A stretch of DNA of 64,000 nucleotides, taken from contig NZ_JAAIKB010000012.1 in the NCBI RefSeq assembly GCF_011040385.1, positions 62,001 through 126,000 on the forward strand, in the 5' to 3' direction. The notes beneath the pieces are model-generated. The model was not told the origin of the DNA, did not search any database, and saw nothing but the letters and a program-made list of their open reading frames with translations. The translations under genes were made by a program, and so were the position numbers. The DNA is from Falsiroseomonas algicola. Its GTDB lineage: Bacteria; Pseudomonadota; Alphaproteobacteria; Acetobacterales; Acetobacteraceae. Of this stretch, positions 12,872 to 24,986 are shown piece by piece (the first letter of the stretch is position 1; the number at the start of each line of letters is the position of its first letter).

Positions 12872-13336
12872 ATGGCCAAGCTCAACGTGAACGGGCGCGT
12901 GATCGAGGTGCAGGTGGAGGACGACACCCCCCTGCTCTGGGTGCTCCGCGAACAGCTCGAACTCACCGGGACAAAATATGGCTGCGGCATCGCGCAATGC
13001 GGCGCCTGCACCGTGCATGTGGATGGCGTGGCCACGCGGTCCTGCGCCATGCCCGTCTCCGCCTTCGACGAGAACCAGAAGATCGTGACGATCGAGGGCC
13101 TGTCGCCGGACAGCAGCCACCCCATCCAGCAGGCCTGGCTGGCGCTGGACGTGCCGCAATGCGGCTTCTGCCAGTCCGGCATGATCATGGCCGCTGCCGC
13201 CCTGCTGGCGAATACCCCCCGCCCGACGGAGCAGCAGATCCGGGAGGAAGTCACCAACATCTGCCGCTGCGGCACCTACAACCGCGTGCTGGCCGGCATC
13301 CAGCGCGCCGCCGGCACCGCCGGCGCGGCCGGCTGA
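12872..13336 (+). CDS. [2Fe-2S] subunit of a molybdenum hydroxylase (IorA-type)
   Basis: The 154-residue protein carries a plant-type [2Fe-2S] cluster (Cys38, 43, 46 and 58: GCGIAQCGACTV...C) and a C-terminal helical [2Fe-2S] domain (Cys97, 100, 131, 133: CGFCQSG...CRCG). It passes electrons from the molybdenum centre of its partner, the next gene. This is the small subunit of isoquinoline 1-oxidoreductase/aldehyde-dehydrogenase-type enzymes, which lack an FAD subunit. No signal peptide is present; export together with the TAT-tagged partner is expected. Start ATG 12872 follows a GGGAGAG site. Confidence 0.92.
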   Translation: MAKLNVNGRVIEVQVEDDTPLLWVLREQLELTGTKYGCGIAQCGACTVHVDGVATRSCAMPVSAFDENQKIVTIEGLSPDSSHPIQQAWLALDVPQCGFCQSGMIMAAAALLANTPRPTEQQIREEVTNICRCGTYNRVLAGIQRAAGTAGAAG

Positions 13337-13350
13337 GGGGGGTGCGCATC

Positions 13351-15558
13351 ATGAACGCGATCACCAAGCCCTCGCGCCGGGGTGTCCTCGGCACCGCCGT
13401 CGCCGCGGCCGGCGCCTTCACCTTCGGCTTCCGCTTCCCCGCGCCCTCCAAGGCGCTGGCGCAAGGGGCGGCCGCACCGGCCTCGCCGGAGATCAATGCC
13501 TGGGTCGTCGTGAAGCCCGACGACACCGTCATCATCCGCATCGCGCGGTCGGAGATGGGGCAGGGCACGCTGACCGGCCTCGCCCAGATGGTGGCCGAGG
13601 AGCTGGAATGCGACTGGGCCAAGGTCACGACGGAATACCCGACACCGGGCCAGAACCTGGCGCGCGGCCGGATCTGGGGGAACATGTCCACGGGCGGCAG
13701 CCGCGGTATCCGTGACAGCCACGAATACGTCCGCAAGGGCGGCGCCGCGGCGCGCATGATGCTGGTCCAGGCCGCCGCCAATGGCTGGGGCGTCGCGCCC
13801 GGCGAATGCCGTGCGGCCAACAGCGTCATCACCCATACGCCCACCGGCCGCACCACCACCTTCGGCGCCGTCGCCGAGGCCGCCATGCGCCTCACGGCGC
13901 CGGCCGCCGCCGATGTGCCGCTGAAGGACCCGCGCGACTGGAAGCTCATCGGCCAGCCCGTCGCGCGGCTCGACACCCGCGCCAAGCTGAATGGCAGCCA
14001 GGTCTATGGCATGGACCTGAAGCTGCCGGGGATGCTGAACGCCGCCATCCACGCCTGCCCGGTCTTCGGCGGCACCGTCGCCGCGGTGGACAGCGCGGAG
14101 GCCGAGCGCATGCCCGGCGTGAAGCGCGTGCTGCGCGTGGGCGACAATGCCGTCGCCGTCGTCGCCGATACGTGGTGGCGCGCCCATAAGGCGCTGGAGG
14201 CGGTGAAGATCACCTGGAACAACGGGGAGCACGCCAACGCTTCCTCCGCCGCCTTCCGCGACGTGATGATGCAGGCCTTCGACGCGCCCCAGGCAGCGGT
14301 CGGCAACCGCAACGGCGATGCGGCCGCCGCCATCGCGGGCGCCGCGCGCAAGGTGGAGGCCATCTACGGCTATCCCCACCAGAACCACGCCTGCATGGAG
14401 GTGATGAACGCCACCGCCGTCTGGACGCCGGAGCGCTGCGAGGTCTGGACCCCGACCCAGAATGGCGAAGCGGCGCACGCCGCCACCGCCGAGGCCTCCG
14501 GCCTGCCGCCCGCGCGCTGCGAGGTGCACAAGATCCACCTCGGCGGCGGTTTCGGACGTCGCGGCGCGGTGCATGACTGGGTGCGCCAGGTCGTCGCCAT
14601 CGCGAAGGAGATGCCCGGCACGCCGATCAAGCTGATCTGGACGCGGGAGGAGGACATGCTCCAGGGCCGCTTCCACCCCGTGACCATGTGCAAGCTGACC
14701 GCGGGGCTGGACGCGCAGGGCAACCTGACCGGCCTTCAGATGCGCATCAGCGGCCAGTCCATCGTCGCCGGCATCTTCCCGCAGAACATCCGGGATGGCC
14801 GCGACCCCGTAGTCTTCCAGGGGCTGAATGCGGGCGGCGGCGAGGCCGATATCGGCTACAGCTTCCCGAACCTGCTGATCGACCACGCCATGCGCAACCC
14901 GCATGTGCCGCCGGGCTTCTGGCGCGGCGTGAACCTGAACCAGAACGCGATCTACCTCGAATGCTTCCTGGATGAGGTGGCGCATGCGGCGGGGAAGGAT
15001 CCGCTGGAATTCCGCCGGTCCCTGATGGCCAACCACCCGAAGCACCTGGCCGTGCTGAACGCCGTCGCGGAACGCGCGGGCTGGGGCACGCCGGCTGCCG
15101 CCGTCAACGGCCAGGCCGTGCATCGCGGCCTCTGCGTCACCCATGGCTTCGGCGCCTATGTCGCGGCCTGTGCGGAGGTTTCCGTCAGTGATGCCGGGGA
15201 GGTGAAGGTGCATCGCATCATCGCCGCGACGGACCCGGGCCATGCCGTGAACCCGCAGCAGATCGCCGCCCAGGTGGAAGGCAGCTTCGTCTATGGGCTG
15301 TCGGCCGCGCTCTATGGCGAATGCACGGTCAAGGACGGCAGGATCGAGCAGACCAACTTCGACAGCTACCCGGTCATGCGCATGATCGACATGCCGAAGG
15401 TGGAGACGATCGTACTGCCGACGGGCGGCTTCTGGGGCGGCGTCGGGGAGCCGACCATCGCCGTCGCCGCGCCTGCCGTGCTGAACGCGATCTTCGCCGC
15501 CACCGGCAAGCGCATCCGCCAGCTTCCGCTGCAGCAGGCGGATCTGCGCCGGACGTGA
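13351..15558 (+). CDS. Molybdopterin-binding subunit of a periplasmic molybdenum hydroxylase (IorB-type)
   Basis: This 735-residue xanthine-oxidase-family large subunit begins with a TAT signal (SRRGVLGTAVAAAG, cleavage near ALAQG), so the complex acts in the periplasm. Visible cofactor-binding segments are SEMGQGTLTGLAQM, GGGFGRRG, and the C-terminal GGVGEPT containing the active-site Glu. Such two-subunit enzymes oxidise N-heterocycles or aldehydes and hand electrons to a cytochrome c. The next gene is a cytochrome c that starts inside this gene's stop codon. Substrate cannot be assigned. Confidence 0.92.
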   Translation: MNAITKPSRRGVLGTAVAAAGAFTFGFRFPAPSKALAQGAAAPASPEINAWVVVKPDDTVIIRIARSEMGQGTLTGLAQMVAEELECDWAKVTTEYPTPGQNLARGRIWGNMSTGGSRGIRDSHEYVRKGGAAARMMLVQAAANGWGVAPGECRAANSVITHTPTGRTTTFGAVAEAAMRLTAPAAADVPLKDPRDWKLIGQPVARLDTRAKLNGSQVYGMDLKLPGMLNAAIHACPVFGGTVAAVDSAEAERMPGVKRVLRVGDNAVAVVADTWWRAHKALEAVKITWNNGEHANASSAAFRDVMMQAFDAPQAAVGNRNGDAAAAIAGAARKVEAIYGYPHQNHACMEVMNATAVWTPERCEVWTPTQNGEAAHAATAEASGLPPARCEVHKIHLGGGFGRRGAVHDWVRQVVAIAKEMPGTPIKLIWTREEDMLQGRFHPVTMCKLTAGLDAQGNLTGLQMRISGQSIVAGIFPQNIRDGRDPVVFQGLNAGGGEADIGYSFPNLLIDHAMRNPHVPPGFWRGVNLNQNAIYLECFLDEVAHAAGKDPLEFRRSLMANHPKHLAVLNAVAERAGWGTPAAAVNGQAVHRGLCVTHGFGAYVAACAEVSVSDAGEVKVHRIIAATDPGHAVNPQQIAAQVEGSFVYGLSAALYGECTVKDGRIEQTNFDSYPVMRMIDMPKVETIVLPTGGFWGGVGEPTIAVAAPAVLNAIFAATGKRIRQLPLQQADLRRT

Positions 15559-15824
15559 GGGCCTTCGCGCTGGCGCTGCTGATGGCGGCGCCAGCCTTCG
15601 CGGCAGAGGAGGCGCCACCCGGCGCCTCCACCTGCCTCGGCTGCCATTCGCCGGTGCGCGCCGATGCCGCCATCCCCCCGCTGCGCGGGCGGGATGCGGC
15701 GGCGGTCGCGGCGGCGATGCGGGAGTTCCGGGAAGGGACGCGCCCCGCAACGCTGATGGACCGCCTGGCGCGCGGCTTCACCGAGGAAGAGAGCCAGGCC
15801 ATCGCCGCCTGGATCGTGCGATGA
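15555..15824 (+). CDS. Small cytochrome c, SoxE/FccA-like
   Basis: An 89-residue protein with a short signal peptide (LALLMAAPAFA) and one heme motif, CLGCH, near residue 30. A later Met (TLMDRLARGF) can serve as axial ligand. It starts with GTG in a 4-nt GTGA overlap with the molybdenum hydroxylase and ends in an ATGA overlap with soxF. By position it is the cytochrome subunit of a flavocytochrome c sulfide dehydrogenase, but it is equally placed to take electrons from the molybdenum enzyme. Confidence 0.85.
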   Translation: MRAFALALLMAAPAFAAEEAPPGASTCLGCHSPVRADAAIPPLRGRDAAAVAAAMREFREGTRPATLMDRLARGFTEEESQAIAAWIVR

Positions 15825-17059
15825 AGGCCACGCGACGCGCCCTGGCCGCGCTGCTGCTGCCGGCGCCGGTCTTCGCGCAGGCTCGCCCGCGCGTCGTGGT
15901 GGTCGGTGGCGGCTTCGGCGGCGCCACCGCCGCGCGGTCGCTCCACCGCGCCGGCATCGCGACGACGCTGGTCGAGGCCAGCGCCACCTACACCGCCTGC
16001 CCCTTCAGCAACGCCGTCATCGCCGGGCTGCGCGGGATGGCGGCGCAGCGCTTCGGCTATGATGCGCTGCGGGCAGAGGGGATCACTGTCGTGCACCAGC
16101 GCGCCACGGGCGTGGATGCCACGGCCCGGCGCGTGACCCTGGTCGATGGCACCACGCTGCCCTTCGACCGCGCCTTGCTCTCGCCCGGCATCGAGATCCG
16201 CTTCGATGGGTTGCCCGGCTATGACGAAGCGGCCGCCGAGGTCATGCCCCATGCCTGGCAGGCCGGCCCGCAGACGGAACTGCTGGCCGCGCAACTGCGG
16301 GACATGCCGGATGGCGGCACCGTCGTCATGGTCGTGCCCCCCAACCCCTATCGCTGTCCGCCCGGGCCCTACGAGCGGGCCTCCCTCATCGCGCATTTCC
16401 TGAAATCGAGAAAACCGCGGTCGAAGCTGCTGGTGCTGGATGCGAAGGACGTCTTCAGCAAGCAGCGGTTGTTCGAAGCCGCCTGGGCCAGCCTCTATCC
16501 GGACACCCTCGAATACGTGCCCCTCGCCATGGGCGGCCGCGTGACGGAGGTCGATCCGAAGTCGCGCCGCGTCACCACCGATTTCGGCACGCAGGACGGC
16601 GCGGTGGTGAACGTCATTCCGCCCCAGCGCGCGGGCGCCATCGCGCAGCTTGCCGGCGTCGCTGACCGCTCCGGCTGGTGCCCCGTCGATCCCGCCAGCT
16701 TCGAGAGCCGGCTGGTGCCGGGCGTGCATGTGATCGGCGACGCCATCATCGCCGGCGCCATGCCGAAATCCGCCTTCGCCGCGAATGCGCAGGCCCGGGT
16801 CGCCGCCGCGGCGATGGTGGCGCTGCTGGCCGGGCGCGCGGTGCAGGCGCCCAAGCTGCTGAACACCTGCTACAGCCTGGTGGCGCCGGAATACGGCATC
16901 TCCGTCGCGGGCGTGTACCAGCCCGCGAACGGCCTGCTGACGGATGTGTCGGGCGCGGGCGGCACCAGCCCGCTGGAGGCGCCTGCCGGCGTGCGGGCGG
17001 CGGAGGCGCGCTACGCGGAGGATTGGTTCGCGACGATCACGGCTGATGTTTTCGGCTAG
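15821..17059 (+). CDS. soxF: Flavocytochrome c sulfide dehydrogenase, flavoprotein subunit
   Basis: A 412-residue exported flavoprotein (signal about 1-20). It has the Rossmann motif VVVVGGGFGGATAAR at 24-38 and Cys60 in YTACPFSN, the expected site of covalent FAD attachment. Two further cysteines, in NPYRCPPGPYE and LLNTCYSLV, are equivalent to the redox disulfide of FccB. It oxidises sulfide or a related sulfur species in the periplasm and reduces the partner cytochrome. It lies between the soxE-like cytochrome and soxX. Confidence 0.9.
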   Translation: MKATRRALAALLLPAPVFAQARPRVVVVGGGFGGATAARSLHRAGIATTLVEASATYTACPFSNAVIAGLRGMAAQRFGYDALRAEGITVVHQRATGVDATARRVTLVDGTTLPFDRALLSPGIEIRFDGLPGYDEAAAEVMPHAWQAGPQTELLAAQLRDMPDGGTVVMVVPPNPYRCPPGPYERASLIAHFLKSRKPRSKLLVLDAKDVFSKQRLFEAAWASLYPDTLEYVPLAMGGRVTEVDPKSRRVTTDFGTQDGAVVNVIPPQRAGAIAQLAGVADRSGWCPVDPASFESRLVPGVHVIGDAIIAGAMPKSAFAANAQARVAAAAMVALLAGRAVQAPKLLNTCYSLVAPEYGISVAGVYQPANGLLTDVSGAGGTSPLEAPAGVRAAEARYAEDWFATITADVFG

Positions 17060-17075
17060 GGCAAGCGAACTGCAA

Positions 17076-17102
17076 CCCTCTCCCCTCTGTGGGGCGAGAG
17101 GG
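17076..17102 (+). promoter_or_regulatory. Hairpin that covers the soxX ribosome-binding site
   Basis: CCCTCT(17076-17081)+CCCC(17082-17085) pairs with GGGG(17091-17094)+AGAGGG(17097-17102); the loop is TCTGT and a 2-nt CG bulge sits on the right arm. The right arm contains the only Shine-Dalgarno-like sequence (GAGGG), 6 nt before the soxX ATG at 17109. The element resembles intergenic palindromic repeats common in Alphaproteobacteria. It could throttle soxX translation or protect upstream mRNA. Confidence 0.5.
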
Positions 17103-17108
17103 CTTGTC

Positions 17109-17513
17109 ATGGCCATCCTGGCCCTCCTCCTCCTCATCCCCTCCGCGCGTGCGGATGAAGCACCCCTGACCGCCACGCCCGGCGACGCCACCCGCGGCCG
17201 CGCCATCGTCGCCGACCGCACACGTGGCCTCTGTCTGCTCTGCCACTCCGGCCCGATCCCGGAGGAGCGCTTCCAGGGCAACCTGGCGCCGCCCCTCGAT
17301 GGCGCGGGCCTTCGCTGGACCGCTGCCGAACTCCGGCTGCGCCTGGTGGATGGCAAGCGCTTGAACCCGGACAGCATCATGCCTTCCTACTACCGGACCG
17401 AGGGCCTGCACCGCGTCGCCCCCGCCCAGCGCGGCCGCCCCATCCTGGCGGCGCAGGAGATCGAGGACGTGATCGCCTATCTGCTGACCCTGCGTGAGGA
17501 GCCGCCACGATGA
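17109..17513 (+). CDS. soxX: Sulfur oxidation c-type cytochrome SoxX
   Basis: About 134 residues with a Sec signal peptide (MAILALLLLIPSARA), a single heme motif CLLCH, and the family's methionine-ligand stretch DSIMPSYYRTEGLHRVA. The C-terminal QEIEDVIAYLLTL helix is typical of class I cytochromes. SoxX pairs with SoxA to form SoxAX, which loads thiosulfate or another sulfur compound onto the SoxY cysteine. ATG 17109 is preferred because the signal peptide begins there. Its stop overlaps soxY by 4 nt. Confidence 0.92.
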   Translation: MAILALLLLIPSARADEAPLTATPGDATRGRAIVADRTRGLCLLCHSGPIPEERFQGNLAPPLDGAGLRWTAAELRLRLVDGKRLNPDSIMPSYYRTEGLHRVAPAQRGRPILAAQEIEDVIAYLLTLREEPPR

Positions 17514-17950
17514 TCGTGCCGACACGCCGCCTGCTGCTCGCGGCCCCCGCCCTGCTGCTGCTGCCCCGCCAGGCCGATGCCACGCCCGAAGCCATGGCGG
17601 AGGCCGTGCGCGGCTTCACCGGCGGCGCGCCCGTCACGCCGGGCCGCGTCGCGCTCGACATCTCGCCGCTGGTGGAGAACGGCAACACCGTGCCGCTCTC
17701 CGTCATCGTCGAAAGCCCGATGACGGAGGAGGACCACGTCCGCGCCATCGCCGTCTTCAACGAACGCAACCCGCAGCCGCATGTCATCACCGCGCAGCTC
17801 GGCCCGCGCGCCGGTCGCGCGCTGCTCTCCACCCATATCCGGCTGGCGACGTCGCAGACGCTGCTGGCGGTGGCCGCGCTGTCCGATGGCAGCTTCTGGT
17901 CGGACCGCGCGCAGGTCGTCGTGACCCTCGCCGCCTGCATCGAGGGTTGA
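17510..17950 (+). CDS. soxY: Sulfur carrier protein SoxY with an atypical C-terminus
   Basis: SoxY carries sulfur intermediates on a C-terminal cysteine at the tip of a flexible arm, in complex with SoxZ. The 146-residue product has a signal peptide (RRLLLAAPALLLLP), the SoxY Ig-like domain (VPLSVIVESPM, NPQPHVITAQLGP, STHIRLATSQTLLAVAALSDG) and ends VVVTLAACIEG. Classical SoxY ends in GGCGG. Here the cysteine (143) is kept but is followed by Ile-Glu-Gly, one residue longer and bulkier. The position in a soxXYZA run leaves little doubt about the family. Confidence 0.9.
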   Translation: MIVPTRRLLLAAPALLLLPRQADATPEAMAEAVRGFTGGAPVTPGRVALDISPLVENGNTVPLSVIVESPMTEEDHVRAIAVFNERNPQPHVITAQLGPRAGRALLSTHIRLATSQTLLAVAALSDGSFWSDRAQVVVTLAACIEG

Positions 17951-17954
17951 GCCC

Positions 17955-18275
17955 ATGGCCCGCGTCCTGATCAACGTGCCGCGCAGCGCGAAGCGCGGCG
18001 ACATCATCACCATCCGCACCCTGATCCAGCACACGATGGAAACGGGCTACCGCCCCAATGCGCAGGGGGAGGTCGTGCCCCGCGACATCATCCGCCGCTT
18101 CACCTGCAGCTATGACGGCGCGGTCATCTTCAGCGCCGAACTGTCGCCAGCGATCGCCGCCAATCCGTTCCTGTCCTTCACCACCGTCGCCACGCGCTCC
18201 GGCACGGTGACGATGACCTGGGAAGGCGACAACGGCTTCGCGCAGACGGAGACGCGCCCGATCGAGGTGACATGA
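17955..18275 (+). CDS. soxZ: SoxYZ complex subunit SoxZ
   Basis: A 106-residue protein without a signal peptide, as usual for SoxZ, which is exported with SoxY. It reads RVLINVPRSAKRGDIITIRTLIQHTMETGYR, then RFTCSYDGAVIFSAELSPAIAANPFLSF and a final TWEGDNGF segment, all typical of the family. It starts 4 nt after soxY and its stop overlaps soxA by ATGA. Confidence 0.94.
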   Translation: MARVLINVPRSAKRGDIITIRTLIQHTMETGYRPNAQGEVVPRDIIRRFTCSYDGAVIFSAELSPAIAANPFLSFTTVATRSGTVTMTWEGDNGFAQTETRPIEVT

Positions 18276-18994
18276 GGCGCACCCTGGCGCTGCTGCTGCT
18301 GGCGCTGCCCGCTTCCGCGCAGGATCGCCGATCGGGCTTCGAGGACATGGCGCGGGAGACGCAGGCCATGCAGCGCGACGACATGCAGAACCCCGGCATG
18401 CTCTGGGTGGCGGAAGGCGAGGAGCGCTTCAACCGCGACTGCACGTCCTGCCACACCGAGGCCTCGATGCGCGGCGTCGCCGCGCGCTACCCCGCCTGGG
18501 ACGAGGCGACGGGCGCGCCGATCGACCTCGCCGGCCGCATCAGCGCCTGCGTGGAGCGCCACCAGCGCGCGACGCCGCCGGCGCGGGAGAGCCAGGCGCT
18601 GCTGGCGCTGACAGCCTATGTCGCGCACCAGTCGCGCGGATTGCCGATCAGCCGCCCGACCGATCCGCGCCTGGCGCCGGCGCTGGCGCAGGGGCGCGCG
18701 TTGTATGGGGAGCGTCGCGGCCAGCTCGACCTCTCCTGCGTCCAGTGCCATGACGACAATGCGGGGCGGCGGCTGGCGGGCAGCGTGATCCCGCAGGCGC
18801 ATCCCACGGGCTATCCGCTCTATCGCCTGGAATGGCAGGGGCTGGGGTCGCTGCAGCGGCGGCTGCGCGGCTGCATGACGGGCGTGCGGTCGGAGCCCTT
18901 CGCCTATGGCGCGGCCGAATATGTCGCGCTGGAGATTTTCCTCAATGACCGCGCCGCGGGGATGGCCATCGAGACTCCCGCGGTCAGGCCTTAG
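18272..18994 (+). CDS. soxA: Diheme cytochrome c SoxA
   Basis: SoxA forms the SoxAX enzyme that joins a sulfur substrate to SoxY. The 240-residue protein has a signal peptide (about 1-16) and two heme motifs, CTSCH at 57-61 and CVQCH at 156-160, so it is the diheme type. Cys201, in RLRGCMTGVRSEPF, corresponds to the active-site heme ligand that becomes a persulfide in characterised SoxA. The window shows no soxB, soxCD, soxV, soxW or soxS, so the full pathway would need genes elsewhere. Its 3' end overlaps the convergent acyl-CoA ligase by 11 nt. Confidence 0.93.
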   Translation: MRRTLALLLLALPASAQDRRSGFEDMARETQAMQRDDMQNPGMLWVAEGEERFNRDCTSCHTEASMRGVAARYPAWDEATGAPIDLAGRISACVERHQRATPPARESQALLALTAYVAHQSRGLPISRPTDPRLAPALAQGRALYGERRGQLDLSCVQCHDDNAGRRLAGSVIPQAHPTGYPLYRLEWQGLGSLQRRLRGCMTGVRSEPFAYGAAEYVALEIFLNDRAAGMAIETPAVRP

Positions 18995-21547: not shown

Positions 21548-23122
21548 ATGCCGAGCCCCCGCCGCCTGCTGGTCGCCACCGCCGCGCTTGCCGCGCTGAT
21601 CGGCCTCGCGCCGCCTGCAACGGCGCAGGATCGCACCATGGTCATGGCCATGGTCTCCACGCCGCGCGGCTTCGATCCCGATATCTGGGTGCCCGGCCAG
21701 ATCGAGGCCTCGGTCAACGTCTATGAGGGGCTGACACGCTTCGCCACGCGCCCCGGCGCCAATGGCCGCACGGAAGTCGATCCCGGCCGCGTGGAGCCGC
21801 ATCTCGCGGAATCCTGGACGGTGTCGGAGGACGGGAAGGAATACGTCTTCCGCATCCGCCCCGGCATGCGCAGCCATTTCGGCAATGAGCTGACCGCCGC
21901 CGATGTCGTCTGGACCTTCGAGAAATCGAACGCGCAGCGCCGCACCGGCCTCTTCATCCGCAACGTCGCGCTGATCGAGAGCGTGGAGGAAGTCTCCCGC
22001 TTCGAGGTCCGCTTCCGGCTGAAGGAGGCGAACCGCATCTTCCTCAGCGTGCTGACGCTGCACATCCCCGCGCTGTTCGACAGCACGGAGGCGAAGAAGC
22101 ACGCGACGCCGGAGGATCCCTTCGCCGCGCGCTGGCTCGGTTCCAACACCGCGGGCTTCGGCCCCTATCACGTGGAGAGCGTGACGGCGGGACAGCAGGC
22201 GATCTTCGTCCTCAACCGCGGCTACCAGTTCGACCGCCCCTTCTACAGCCGGATCGTGTGGCGGGAGGTGCCGTCCCCGGCGACGCGCGTCGCGCTGGTG
22301 CGTACCGGCCAGGTGCAATACGCGGAGCAGATCCCGCTGCAGCAGATCGCCGACCTGCGGCGTGACCGCAACGTGCGCGTGGAGAGCGTCGCGGCACCGG
22401 GCAGCGCCACCGTGCGGATGAACCCGCGCATTGCGCCCTTCACCGATGTGCGCGTCCGCCAGGCCGTCGCCTATGCCACCGACTATCGCGCGATCGGGGA
22501 GGCCGTGTTCCTCGGCCTCGGCACGCGCAGCCGCTCCATGCTGAACCCGCCGATCCCCGGCGCGATCGACGCCTATACCTACGAGACCGACTATGATCGC
22601 GCCAAGACGCTGCTGGCGGAGGCCGGGCACCCCAACGGCCTCGACGTCACGCTGGAATACAGCACGAACTGGTGGTGGGAGGAGCCGCTGGCGCTGCAGA
22701 TGCAGGCGAGCCTGGCGCGCGCCGGCATCCGCGTGACGCCGCGCCGCATCCCGGCCACCGAGATCACCGCGCGCCGCGCCGTGAATGTCTGGTCGCTGCC
22801 CTTCATGACGCACCTCACCTCCTCCTTCGTGCCTGATCCCTCCTACAACATGTTCCTCACGGCGCATTCGCGCGGCGGCTCCAACGTGAACGGCAACAAC
22901 AACGCGGAACTCGACGGCCTCATCGACGCCTCCGTCAGCGAACGTGACGATGCGCGCTGGCTCGACATTGTCGCCCGCGCGCAGCGCAGCCAGGCGGAAA
23001 GCGCCACCTTCGTCGAGACCTTCCTGCCCGGCACGCATGAGGTCTTTGCCGCCTGCATGGAGGGCTTCATGTGGCGGCCCCATAACCGCCTGGTCTGGAA
23101 GGATTTGGCCTGCCGCCGGTGA
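21548..23122 (+). CDS. Periplasmic substrate-binding protein of a Dpp/Opp-type ABC importer
   Basis: The 524-residue family 5 solute-binding protein has a Sec signal (LLVATAALAALIGLAPPATAQ). The family layout follows: YEGLTRF, PHLAESWTVSEDGKEYVFRIRPGMRSHFG, and a GFGPYHVESV segment near 200. The family binds peptides, but also opines, nickel, glutathione and amides. It is the first gene of an eleven-gene operon, so its ligand is probably the compound degraded by the downstream enzymes. It overlaps the permease gene by GTGA. Confidence 0.92.
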   Translation: MPSPRRLLVATAALAALIGLAPPATAQDRTMVMAMVSTPRGFDPDIWVPGQIEASVNVYEGLTRFATRPGANGRTEVDPGRVEPHLAESWTVSEDGKEYVFRIRPGMRSHFGNELTAADVVWTFEKSNAQRRTGLFIRNVALIESVEEVSRFEVRFRLKEANRIFLSVLTLHIPALFDSTEAKKHATPEDPFAARWLGSNTAGFGPYHVESVTAGQQAIFVLNRGYQFDRPFYSRIVWREVPSPATRVALVRTGQVQYAEQIPLQQIADLRRDRNVRVESVAAPGSATVRMNPRIAPFTDVRVRQAVAYATDYRAIGEAVFLGLGTRSRSMLNPPIPGAIDAYTYETDYDRAKTLLAEAGHPNGLDVTLEYSTNWWWEEPLALQMQASLARAGIRVTPRRIPATEITARRAVNVWSLPFMTHLTSSFVPDPSYNMFLTAHSRGGSNVNGNNNAELDGLIDASVSERDDARWLDIVARAQRSQAESATFVETFLPGTHEVFAACMEGFMWRPHNRLVWKDLACRR

Positions 23123-24129
23123 GCATCACCCGCTTCCTGCTGCGCCGCCTGCTGGTGGCGGTGCCGGTCCTGCTCGGCATCCTCTTCCTGACCTTCATGC
23201 TGGTCCGCATCGGGGACCAGGACCCGGTGGCGATGCTGGCGGGGCCGATGGCGGATGCGCCGATGCTGGCGCGCATCCGGGCGGAGCTGATGCTGGACCA
23301 GCCGCTGCTGACGCAGTTCTGGGGCTACCTCACAAGGCTTGTGCAGGGCGACCTCGGCATGTCCTGGCAGGGCAATGCGGCGGTGACGAAGGAGATCGCG
23401 ACGCACCTGCCCGCCACGCTGGAACTGGTGACACTCGCCGTCGGCATCGGCGCGCTGGTCGGCGTGCCGCTCGGCCTGCATGCGGCGGAACGCCCGAATG
23501 GGTGGTTCGACCAGCTGTCGCGCTTCGGCTCGCTCTTCGGCTTCTCGCTGCCGACCTACTGGCTCGGCCTGATGGCGATCTTCGTCTTCTTCTTCCTGCT
23601 GGGCTGGGCGCCGGCGCCGATGGGTCGCGTTTCCATGATGGTGACGCCACCGCCCGTCGTCACGGGATCGGTGCTGATCGACAGCATCCTGGCCGGCAAC
23701 GGGGAGGCTGCGTGGTCCGCAGCCTCGCAACTCGTCCTGCCCGTCGGCTGCTTCGCCATCGTCGCGACCGCGCCCATCATCAAGCACACCCGCGCCATCG
23801 CGATCGAGGTGATGGGCAGCGACTACATCCGCTACGCCCGCGCCTGCGGCTTCCCCCGCCGCGTCATCCGCCGCATCGCGCTGCGCGCGGCCCTCGTCCC
23901 CGTCATCACCTTCGTGGGGTCGGAGTTCACCTCGCTACTCGCGGCGGCAAGCCTGATCGAATTCGTCTTTGCCTGGGGCGGGCTTGGCCATTGGGGGCTG
24001 AACGCCATCCTGCTGGGCGATTTCGCGGCGGTGCAGGGCTATGTGCTGACCCTCGCCATCGCCTCCGTCATCATCTTCGCGCTGGTCGATCTCATTGTCC
24101 TGCTGCTCGAGCCGCGGGCGCGGGCATGA
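23119..24129 (+). CDS. ABC importer permease, DppB-like
   Basis: A 336-residue inner-membrane protein with six predicted helices. The N-terminus (ITRFLLRRLLVAVPVLLGILFLTFMLVRI) and LMLDQPLLTQFWGYLTRLVQGDLGMS are the DppB signature. The EAA loop reads YIRYARACGFPRRVIRRIALRAALVPVITF. The start is GTG 23119 in a GTGA overlap with the receptor gene. It forms the channel with the next gene. Confidence 0.93.
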   Translation: MSITRFLLRRLLVAVPVLLGILFLTFMLVRIGDQDPVAMLAGPMADAPMLARIRAELMLDQPLLTQFWGYLTRLVQGDLGMSWQGNAAVTKEIATHLPATLELVTLAVGIGALVGVPLGLHAAERPNGWFDQLSRFGSLFGFSLPTYWLGLMAIFVFFFLLGWAPAPMGRVSMMVTPPPVVTGSVLIDSILAGNGEAAWSAASQLVLPVGCFAIVATAPIIKHTRAIAIEVMGSDYIRYARACGFPRRVIRRIALRAALVPVITFVGSEFTSLLAAASLIEFVFAWGGLGHWGLNAILLGDFAAVQGYVLTLAIASVIIFALVDLIVLLLEPRARA

Positions 24130-24986
24130 GTGCCACCACGCTGGACCGCGTCGTCGGCACCGCGCGCCGCAGCCCCACCTTCGCGGTGGGCTTCGGCATC
24201 ATCCTGGTTTTCGCGCTGCTGGCCGCCTTCGCCGACATCCTCGCGCCGATGCCACCGACGCTGTCTCATCCCTATGAGACGCTGAAGCCGCCCGGCTCCG
24301 GGCCCTTCCTTCTCGGCACCGATGGCAACGGGATGGATGTGCTGTCCCGCGTCATCCATGGCGCGCGCTACGCTTTCGGCATCGCGCTGCCCGCGGGTGC
24401 CATCATGGCGGTGGTCGGCATCCCGCTTGGCCTTATCGCGGGCTGGCGCGGGGGATGGGTGGATGAGGTGCTGCTGCGCGTGCTGGACGTGCTGCGCGCC
24501 TTCCCGACCATCATCCTCGCACTCGCCATCGTCGCCGCCACCGGCCAGGGTTTTCTCAATGTCATCCTGGTCGTGGGGTTTCTCGACAGCCCGATCTTCG
24601 CCCGCATTGTGCGGGCGGAGGTGCTTGCCTTGCGCAACGCCACCTTCGTTCGTGCCGCGGTCGCGGCCGGCAATCCGGAATGGCGCGTGCTGCTGGTGCA
24701 TATCCTGCCCAACGCCATCCTCGGCGCCACGGCGCAGCTGCCGCTGCGCATGGCCTGGGCGGTGCGCATCTCCGCCACCCTCGCCTTCATCGGCATCGGC
24801 GTGCAGGCGCCGGCGCCGGAATGGGGCGCCATGATCCGCCAGGGCGCGGAATACGTGATCTCCGGCGAATGGTGGGTCGCGCTCTTCCCGGGCCTGGCAC
24901 TCATCGCGATGGTGCTCGGGCTCAACCTGGCCGGCGATGGGCTCTCCGACCTCCTCGACCCCAAGCGCCGGGCGACGGGCAAGTGA
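24126..24986 (+). CDS. ABC importer permease, DppC-like
   Basis: This 286-residue permease has an N-terminal helix, then LLGTDGNGMDVLSRVIHGARYAFGIALPAG, typical of DppC, and five further helices. Its EAA-type loop is NATFVRAAVAAGNPEWRVLLVHILPN. ATG 24126 overlaps the dppB-like stop as ATGA, and its own stop overlaps the first ATPase gene as GTGA. It pairs with the preceding permease. Confidence 0.93.
   Translation: MSATTLDRVVGTARRSPTFAVGFGIILVFALLAAFADILAPMPPTLSHPYETLKPPGSGPFLLGTDGNGMDVLSRVIHGARYAFGIALPAGAIMAVVGIPLGLIAGWRGGWVDEVLLRVLDVLRAFPTIILALAIVAATGQGFLNVILVVGFLDSPIFARIVRAEVLALRNATFVRAAVAAGNPEWRVLLVHILPNAILGATAQLPLRMAWAVRISATLAFIGIGVQAPAPEWGAMIRQGAEYVISGEWWVALFPGLALIAMVLGLNLAGDGLSDLLDPKRRATGK

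Follow-up and report, generated by a model that had tools for sequence, protein, structure and literature searches.

A Molybdenum Hydroxylase Gene Pair Adjoins sox Genes

The window considered here, a 64,000-nucleotide stretch of Falsiroseomonas algicola DNA (contig NZ_JAAIKB010000012.1, positions 62,001 to 126,000) from a genome of 6.56 megabases (Mb), contains a compact block of eight genes in which a molybdenum hydroxylase gene pair resembling iorAB runs into genes of the sulfur-oxidizing Sox system. In window coordinates, the genes are as follows.

12872..13336, + strand: iorA-like [2Fe-2S] small subunit, 154 amino acids (Fer2_2, E 4.4e-27; Fer2, E 1.9e-9)
13351..15558, + strand: iorB-like molybdenum-binding large subunit, 735 amino acids (MoCoBD_1 and MoCoBD_2)
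15555..15824, + strand: soxE-like small monoheme cytochrome c with one CxxCH motif; an optional part of the unit
15821..17059, + strand: soxF, flavoprotein of flavocytochrome c sulfide dehydrogenase (FCSD_central, E 8e-47; FCSD-flav_bind, E 1.8e-26); also optional
17109..17513, + strand: soxX, monoheme cytochrome (TIGR04485, 77.3 bits; cut-off 61)
17510..17950, + strand: SoxY paralogue with an AACIEG arm (TIGR04487, 198.0 bits; cut-off 172)
17955..18275, + strand: soxZ (TIGR04490, 85.7 bits; cut-off 76)
18272..18994, + strand: soxA, dihaem cytochrome in which the RLRGC cysteine is kept (TIGR04484, 203.3 bits; cut-off 110)

All eight genes are read from the same strand and are separated by small gaps or overlap by 4 bases. 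The TGA stop codon of iorB and the GTG start codon of the cytochrome gene share the GTGA at 15555-15558, and three further 4-base overlaps join the cytochrome gene to soxF, soxX to soxY, and soxZ to soxA; the remaining spacings are 14 bases (iorA/iorB), 49 bases (soxF/soxX, with the ATG at 17109 chosen by us as the soxX start), and 4 bases (soxY/soxZ). Judged by its domains, the molybdenum enzyme belongs to the xanthine oxidase family and is of IorAB type, with one subunit predicted to bind two [2Fe-2S] clusters and another predicted to bind the molybdenum cofactor; the name refers to this architecture only and not to oxidation of isoquinoline. IorB reads as carrying a twin-arginine signal, a GVGEP motif, and GGGFGRR, and is 93% identical to IorB of Falsiroseomonas stagni; no export signal is seen in the IorA sequence. 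The flavoprotein domains score above gathering and, with the adjoining monoheme protein, give the makeup of a flavocytochrome c sulfide dehydrogenase. Neither the open reading frame list nor Pfam reveals a flavin adenine dinucleotide-binding subunit in the unit besides this flavoprotein, and neither soxB nor soxCD lies within it.

The gene names given in a first-pass annotation of this DNA are mostly confirmed by the family models, with two corrections. The 89-residue cytochrome, whose N terminus reads as a signal peptide, scores 23.7 bits against Pfam Cytochrome_CBB3, under the gathering score of 27. The gene named soxY scores 82.9 bits against the model for true SoxY (TIGR04488; cut-off 125), and its product ends in AACIEG and not in the classical GGCGG-type arm; score and tail together identify it as a SoxY-related AACIE-arm protein (TIGR04487) and not true SoxY, and we call it SoxY below for brevity.

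The Block Is Conserved in Many Pseudomonadota

We searched the TIGR04487 model in three overlapping samples, of 150 genomes from the family, 385 from the class, and 398 from the phylum. Matches of any score occur in 73, 98, and 120 of these genomes, and matches above the cut-off in 14, 21, and 15, respectively. The regions around the better matches were taken, the eight window proteins were placed there by tblastn, and a locus was counted as a unit where IorB, at 45% identity or more, lies on the same strand as SoxY and within 7.5 kilobases (kb) of it. This gave 52 unit loci among the sampled Pseudomonadota, one per genome and including that of the window. The first-pass annotation had pointed out the iorAB-sox adjacency and named uniqueness to this strain as something that would count against its reading; the adjacency is real and conserved, and the unit is present in many genomes, among them members of a genus of another class with genomes of 1.7-2.1 Mb (G707, G657, and G872).

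The usual order is iorA-iorB-(soxE-soxF)-soxX-soxY-soxZ-soxA, with few departures: soxF follows soxA in L154, soxX comes last in L158, L060 has two iorB genes (a tandem pair of copies at 13038-17393), and some loci are cut at contig ends. Median gaps in linked loci are 11 bases for iorA-iorB and 3 bases for soxY-soxZ, and soxX-soxY and soxZ-soxA overlap by a median of 4 bases. The conserved element is an operon-like block, iorA-iorB-soxX-soxY(AAC arm)-soxZ-soxA, to which soxEF is often added and which is sometimes plasmid-borne; in Methylobacterium sp. NMS14P and Roseomonas marmotae, plasmids carry the complete unit. In L155 (genome G330) iorB has one in-frame stop, and in L158 (G160) it is in two separate pieces; either sequencing error or decay could be responsible.

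Two kinds of divergent unit were also seen. The f87 units (L197, L200, L201, and L202) have IorB at 46-50% identity, a SoxY tail of SGAC[IA]E, and no tblastn match to soxX; in L202, IorB is on another contig. The units L198 and L199 have one or two iorAB copies, a triheme cytochrome, SoxZ, and soxEF, with soxXA reordered, and their SoxY proteins extend 20-34 residues past a GACVE tail.

Among flanking genes, the commonest cluster, an ABC ATPase by our reading, is near 32 of 128 loci, and other clusters are near 10 or fewer. In the smaller set of 52 units, a class III aminotransferase-like gene (named by reading) is near 6 and a family-5 solute-binding protein is near 9; we considered both as clues to the substrate and set them aside as too rare. 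The window member of the latter group is SBP_bac_5, and it lies with permease genes downstream of the unit, at 21548-24986.

Coupling Viewed from IorB

The association can also be approached from the enzyme. A scan with two patterns, WGGVGEPT and WRGVNxN[QH]N (593 rows listed), identified 80 named IorB loci among the matches listed, and in 74 of these sox genes are directly downstream, a proportion that is biased upward because the patterns were drawn from sox-linked copies and only matches listed were counted. Five of the others end within 400 bases past iorB, and L279 has room and no sox genes. Hosts among these matches are relatives of Roseomonas, Bosea and Microvirga, and numerous Burkholderiales, including Duganella, Massilia, Roseateles, and Rubrivivax. 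Two loci, L274 and L279, come from metagenome bins titled Bordetella parapertussis, and their IorB proteins resemble those of environmental Burkholderiales (for L279, in the first IorB tree described below); these labels look doubtful.

For a census of the class free of the bias of that scan, 385 genomes, evidently the same draw as above, were searched by BLAST with the IorB protein (E <= 1e-220). The IorB clade is present in 29 of them, every match being at least 60% identical, and its distribution follows that of SoxY: 28 of the 98 genomes with a TIGR04487 match have it, compared with one of the 287 that lack such a match (Fisher p 2e-17). Each of the 21 genomes whose SoxY exceeds the cut-off carries the IorB clade, in G270 and G295 as pieces only, cut by contig ends; these two and G160 are unit genomes that fall outside the 29, their iorB being broken or cut. 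SoxY adjoins IorB in 22 of the 29, and in G219 and G241 one or the other is on a short contig or at a contig end. As a control, 20 loci of IorB paralogues outside the clade (L327-L346; 35-43% identity) have no soxX, soxY, or soxA nearby, although some of these loci are only 5-9 kb long.

Quick trees, all made without bootstrap and containing long paralogue branches, give some indication of the history. In a tree of 55 IorB proteins, the main sox-linked copies and three lone copies form one clade (Shimodaira-Hasegawa-like approximate likelihood ratio test [SH-aLRT] 100), the f87 units lie outside it, and Betaproteobacteria fall among Alphaproteobacteria, which suggests transfer. In a second IorB tree, plasmid IorAB copies lacking sox genes, which are described below, belong within the sox-linked clade (SH-aLRT 99-100) and therefore look like derived uncouplings; the sox-less paralogue L187 branches between the main clade and f87, and L198 and L199, the divergent units, group with sox-less paralogues. 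A single origin of the sox link was considered and is not supported, since L187 separates f87 from the main clade. Linked copies also cluster in a SoxA tree (0 of 500 shuffles as low), which adds little, as many linked copies truncated where contigs end are counted among its unlinked rows.

The SoxY Arm Is Altered Wherever It Adjoins IorAB

Among 128 distinct IorAB-linked SoxY proteins, 127 have an intact, readable tail (that of L255 is lost at a contig end), and none of the 127 is GGC: the tails are AAC in 101, SAC in 15, GAC in 7, PAC in 2, and ASC in 2. GGC is found in 22 of 34 unlinked SoxY proteins, and every GGC-tailed copy is unlinked. The residue preceding the arm cysteine is Ala or Ser in all intact linked copies and Gly in all GGC copies. 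Of the 12 unlinked proteins with other tails, eight are at contig ends (L046, L048, L050, L056, L078, L085, L138, and L202), two (L198 and L199) adjoin a divergent IorAB at 37-40% identity, and two (L152 and L162) have no IorB nearby, yet IorB is present elsewhere in their genomes. A search that begins with TIGR04487 favors AAC tails; the set gathered from IorB first is free of that bias and agrees. The model's cut-off also misses several IorAB-linked copies, such as L058, L059, and L062. The SoxY fold is predicted well (predicted local distance difference test [pLDDT] 88), with a loose arm whose last block scores 57.

SoxB and SoxC Are Usually Missing

SoxB (TIGR04486, cut-off 550) scores below the cut-off in 37 of the 52 unit genomes, with a best score of 19.9 bits in that of the window. 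Eight of the genomes lacking it (G350, G163, G493, G503, G441, G330, G187, and G821) have nine or fewer contigs each, so poor assembly is not the cause there. By comparison, SoxB is present in 10 of 13 genomes chosen for having a GGC-tailed SoxY. SoxC (TIGR04555, cut-off 420; SoxD was not searched) is likewise below the cut-off in 37 of 52 (170 bits in the window's genome) and above it in 15; 35 of the 52 have neither SoxB nor SoxC above the cut-off.

The Enzyme and SoxXA Keep Their Motifs

The motifs of the linked proteins are intact. GVGEP, whose Glu we take to be the catalytic one, is present in all 126 linked IorB proteins and GGGFGRR in 124, and both cluster-cysteine motifs are found in 124 of 125 linked IorA proteins. 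An RR pair within the first 35 residues of all 126 IorB proteins is consistent with the earlier proposal that both the molybdenum enzyme and the sulfur enzymes act in the periplasm. The IorB model (pLDDT 84.5) has its best structural match in 8gy3_C, the large subunit of a membrane-bound aldehyde dehydrogenase from Gluconobacter oxydans (template modeling score 0.85, 27% identity). Beside the 126 linked IorB proteins are 122 SoxX, all monoheme, and 117 SoxA, all diheme, some of the misses being at contig ends (L077, L246, L255, L258, and L280). Window SoxA aligns to the SoxA structure 1h31_A with the presumed active-site cysteine in register; a loose pattern for this cysteine fails in 4 of the 117 linked copies, and its active-site role is taken from part of PMC4423706.

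soxE and soxF Are Accessory

It had been suggested that the molybdenum enzyme and the sulfur enzymes could share the small cytochrome. As a general mechanism this does not hold, as soxF is absent from 16 of the 52 units by tblastn, and among the matches listed in the IorB-first scan 45 of 64 roomy sox-linked loci (those with more than 5 kb of room) show neither soxE nor soxF when searched 6.5 kb downstream and 2.5 kb upstream. Where present in these 64 loci, soxE-soxF has the position seen in the window, after iorB and before soxX, in nine, and soxF follows soxA in 10 (with soxE seen in 6); since it is commonly lacking and varies in position, soxEF is an accessory. The translational coupling through GTGA can be seen in the window, but because soxE and soxF are often absent or elsewhere, it is a detail of this lineage.

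The genome of the window has a second sulfur locus, soxE-soxF-soxY-soxZ (L039, 9429-11642; G000:C90, ~216-218 kb), with a SoxY tail of TTGGCLS. The same four genes recur in one of two orders in L065, L072, L073, L074, L075, and L076.

A Proposed Role in Organic Sulfur Oxidation

The spread of the block among bacteria of soils and fresh water, usually without SoxB, points to an uncharacterized periplasmic pathway, and our literature search agreed with the first-pass annotation in finding no named pathway with this set of genes. Enzymes of the xanthine oxidase family act on aldehydes and activated C-H bonds, adding a hydroxyl whose oxygen is taken from water. Because the arm is changed wherever IorAB adjoins, IorAB and SoxY likely act on the same thing, and the usual release of sulfate would be closed without SoxB. 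We tentatively propose, at somewhat short of an even chance, that the block serves to oxidize an organic sulfur compound in the periplasm, with the help of a carrier and independently of SoxB. Also in favor are the retained motifs, the very low level of a similar Starkeya novella cluster with thiosulfate (PMC3797975, in part), and the occurrence of other divergent SoxYZ carriers next to a pyrroloquinoline quinone alcohol dehydrogenase or xoxF (PMC11237559, in part). SoxXA, which retains its heme motifs and cysteine, would act on a thiol as it is thought to act on thiosulfate in the classical pathway, joining the substrate oxidatively to the AAC-arm cysteine of SoxY. IorAB, predicted to be exported and closest to periplasmic aldehyde dehydrogenases, might then oxidize an aldehyde or activated C-H bond in the tethered or just-released organic part, with electrons passing to c-type cytochromes. 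Hydroxylation beside sulfur would let the carbon part leave, so that no SoxB-type hydrolase would be needed, and the leftover persulfide or sulfide could be taken by SoxEF where present and otherwise by other sinks. A bolder reading, conceivable but doubtful, is that the SoxYZ swinging arm delivers an organic thiol, bound to it as a mixed disulfide, to the active site of the molybdenum hydroxylase, so that in many Alpha- and Betaproteobacteria an enzyme of the xanthine oxidase family would work, without SoxB, on a substrate tethered to a protein.

Several observations weigh against this proposal. Clade IorAB copies that have no sox gene closer than 8 kb are found on plasmids (six of 201 plasmid records were examined) of Sinorhizobium meliloti (psymA and pB), Rhizobium gallicum, and Methylosinus trichosporium OB3b; they keep the motifs of sox-linked copies, so the chemistry of IorAB may not need SoxY, and it is because the carrier may be inessential that our confidence is limited. 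Four of the 29 genomes of the class census (G239, G275, G438, and G515) have a clade IorB apart from SoxY, and G214 (L320, 7849-11913), another of the 29, has iorA-iorB-soxX-soxA without soxYZ and with no TIGR04487 match in the genome. SoxB is above the cut-off elsewhere in 15 of the 52 unit genomes, and weaker matches to its model, up to 174 bits, occur in many of them; we read the latter as general phosphoesterases because 10 of 14 control genomes show such matches, and a distant SoxB substitute among them is possible. None of the flanking genes is conserved such that it would name a substrate. We know of no enzyme of the xanthine oxidase family that acts on a carrier-bound substrate. Among the Sox reactions themselves, according to part of PMC5336275, no step has been directly demonstrated. 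The similar cluster of Starkeya novella, which is compared below, is described as low under all conditions tested, so thiosulfate is not singled out (PMC3797975, in part).

Some of these loci have features of their own. Both G438 and G515 encode another IorB, a divergent one (48-50%), next to a SoxY whose tail is SGACIE. A c-type cytochrome gene lies upstream of IorAB in both annotated sox-less plasmids. On the Methylosinus plasmid pOB3b1 (L287, 3122-10049), clade IorAB stands behind genes for an arylsulfatase and a multiheme cytochrome c and faces XdhC/CoxI and nucleotidyltransferase genes. The idea that the IorB clade is coupled to sox without exception was dropped, given the sox-less plasmid copies in the clade.

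The sox-less copies, together with lone extra clade IorAB copies (L181 and L182), would fit a sequential degradation of organosulfur compounds, in outline the idea of the first-pass annotation, in which IorAB hydroxylates a free sulfur heterocycle or aldehyde, never touching SoxY, while SoxXA, SoxYZ, and SoxEF scavenge the inorganic sulfur that is released; the frequent addition of soxEF, a sulfide enzyme, fits as well. We regard this as possible but rather doubtful, since it leaves unexplained both the arm change in every intact IorAB-linked SoxY and how SoxY is unloaded in the 37 of 52 genomes where SoxB is missing. The kinship of IorB to aldehyde dehydrogenase, its nearest structure, suggests instead that SoxY could hold an aldehyde as a hemithioacetal that IorAB oxidizes to a thioester or acid, with SoxXA resetting or protecting the thiol and no sulfur transferred, and SoxYZ-like carriers do stand beside a pyrroloquinoline quinone (PQQ)-dependent alcohol dehydrogenase and soxH, or xoxF and fdh, in other bacteria (PMC11237559, in part). 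That scheme seems unlikely: SoxX and SoxA are retained, yet the S-S bond formation ascribed to them (PMC4423706, in part) would not be needed, and no conserved flanking gene is a candidate thioester hydrolase.

The block does have SoxXA, SoxYZ, and a molybdenum enzyme, as full Sox does, and the distant SoxB-model matches in many unit genomes could be taken to mean that it is a thiosulfate pathway in which IorAB replaces SoxCD and some other hydrolase replaces SoxB. We think this improbable, as SoxB is below the cut-off in most unit genomes, the arm is changed, IorAB is of the xanthine oxidase family and not of the sulfite oxidase family to which SoxC belongs (PMC5336275, in part), and the S. 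novella cluster is reported to be very low with thiosulfate (PMC3797975, in part). Finally, SoxXA and the AAC-arm SoxYZ might be a periplasmic sulfur donor through which the exported enzyme regains its Mo=S ligand. Xanthine oxidase family enzymes need a sulfido ligand on molybdenum, a persulfide carrier adjoins such an enzyme here, and the sox-less Methylosinus copy has an XdhC/CoxI-like gene beside it. However, XdhC is near 2 of 130 linked IorB loci versus 1 of 37 others, so it does not replace sox genes in general, and the sox-less Sinorhizobium and Rhizobium copies are also without an XdhC neighbor; this explanation is highly improbable.

Genes of the sox system are often taken as evidence of thiosulfate oxidation, and here soxXYZA stand in a widespread block without SoxB and SoxCD, with an altered carrier arm and next to a molybdenum enzyme expected to oxidize carbon. 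If carrier-assisted oxidation of an organic sulfur compound is correct, thiosulfate oxidation may be wrongly ascribed to some bacteria of soil, plants, and fresh water, and a way of breaking down organic sulfur that is so far undescribed would be open to test in laboratory strains. It would also bring SoxYZ-like carriers beside methanol and PQQ dehydrogenases into one frame.

Comparison with Known Systems

In the classical pathway, SoxXA is regarded as linking thiosulfate through a disulfide to the cysteine of SoxY, SoxB as hydrolyzing off the sulfonate, and SoxCD as oxidizing the sulfane (parts of PMC4423706 and PMC5336275). The window resembles it in having SoxX, SoxA, and SoxZ above their cut-offs and, as a paralogue only, the SoxY fold; it differs in having no SoxB or SoxC above the cut-off, an AAC and not a GGC arm, and a molybdenum enzyme of the xanthine oxidase family. 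Its SoxY is by score a member of TIGR04487, a model that names a single protein. IorA and IorB are alike in architecture and fold to the Gluconobacter aldehyde dehydrogenase (8gy3) and to enzymes of the IorAB/PaoABC type. The partner of the Gluconobacter enzyme is presumably a multiheme cytochrome subunit, whereas in the window the neighbors are soxXYZA and the unit has no multiheme cytochrome.

Another parallel is with the quinoprotein-associated SoxYZ proteins (TIGR04557), which are also divergent carriers beside a periplasmic dehydrogenase of carbon compounds: fused divergent SoxYZ adjoin a PQQ alcohol dehydrogenase and soxH, or xoxF and fdhAB (SoxYZ-S2 and S4; PMC11237559, in part). Those are fused YZ proteins, however, and the window SoxY scores 45.9 against a cut-off of 140; no words beginning with "xanthine" or "molybd" occur in the main text of that paper. 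Isoquinoline 1-oxidoreductase and soxYZ are mentioned separately for SAR324 (PMC4782131, in part). Our literature search, mostly without subscription papers, found no paper on a general link between AAC-arm SoxY and IorAB.

The closest precedent, and the only such cluster that we found described, comes from Starkeya novella, whose second sox cluster consists of soxX2Y2Z2A2F2 and a molybdenum enzyme of the xanthine oxidase family and has no SoxB or SoxCD (Kappler et al. 2013, PMC3797975). As far as the parts of that paper on the cluster go, gene content is the same as in the window (SoxAX, SoxYZ, SoxF, and the molybdenum enzyme, without SoxB and SoxCD), and the gene numbering suggests another order, the two being compared here by description and not by sequence. 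These parts report very low expression on glucose, methanol, or thiosulfate, no detection of the second-cluster SoxAX and SoxYZ, and one SoxF-like subunit that was low except after growth on glucose; the authors suggest that the cluster lacks functional significance, with the proviso that matters might differ under other growth conditions. The description concerns one species, and the same parts do not mention the arm or the spread of the cluster. The block itself is widespread, and its conservation argues against the dispensability suggested for the S. novella cluster.

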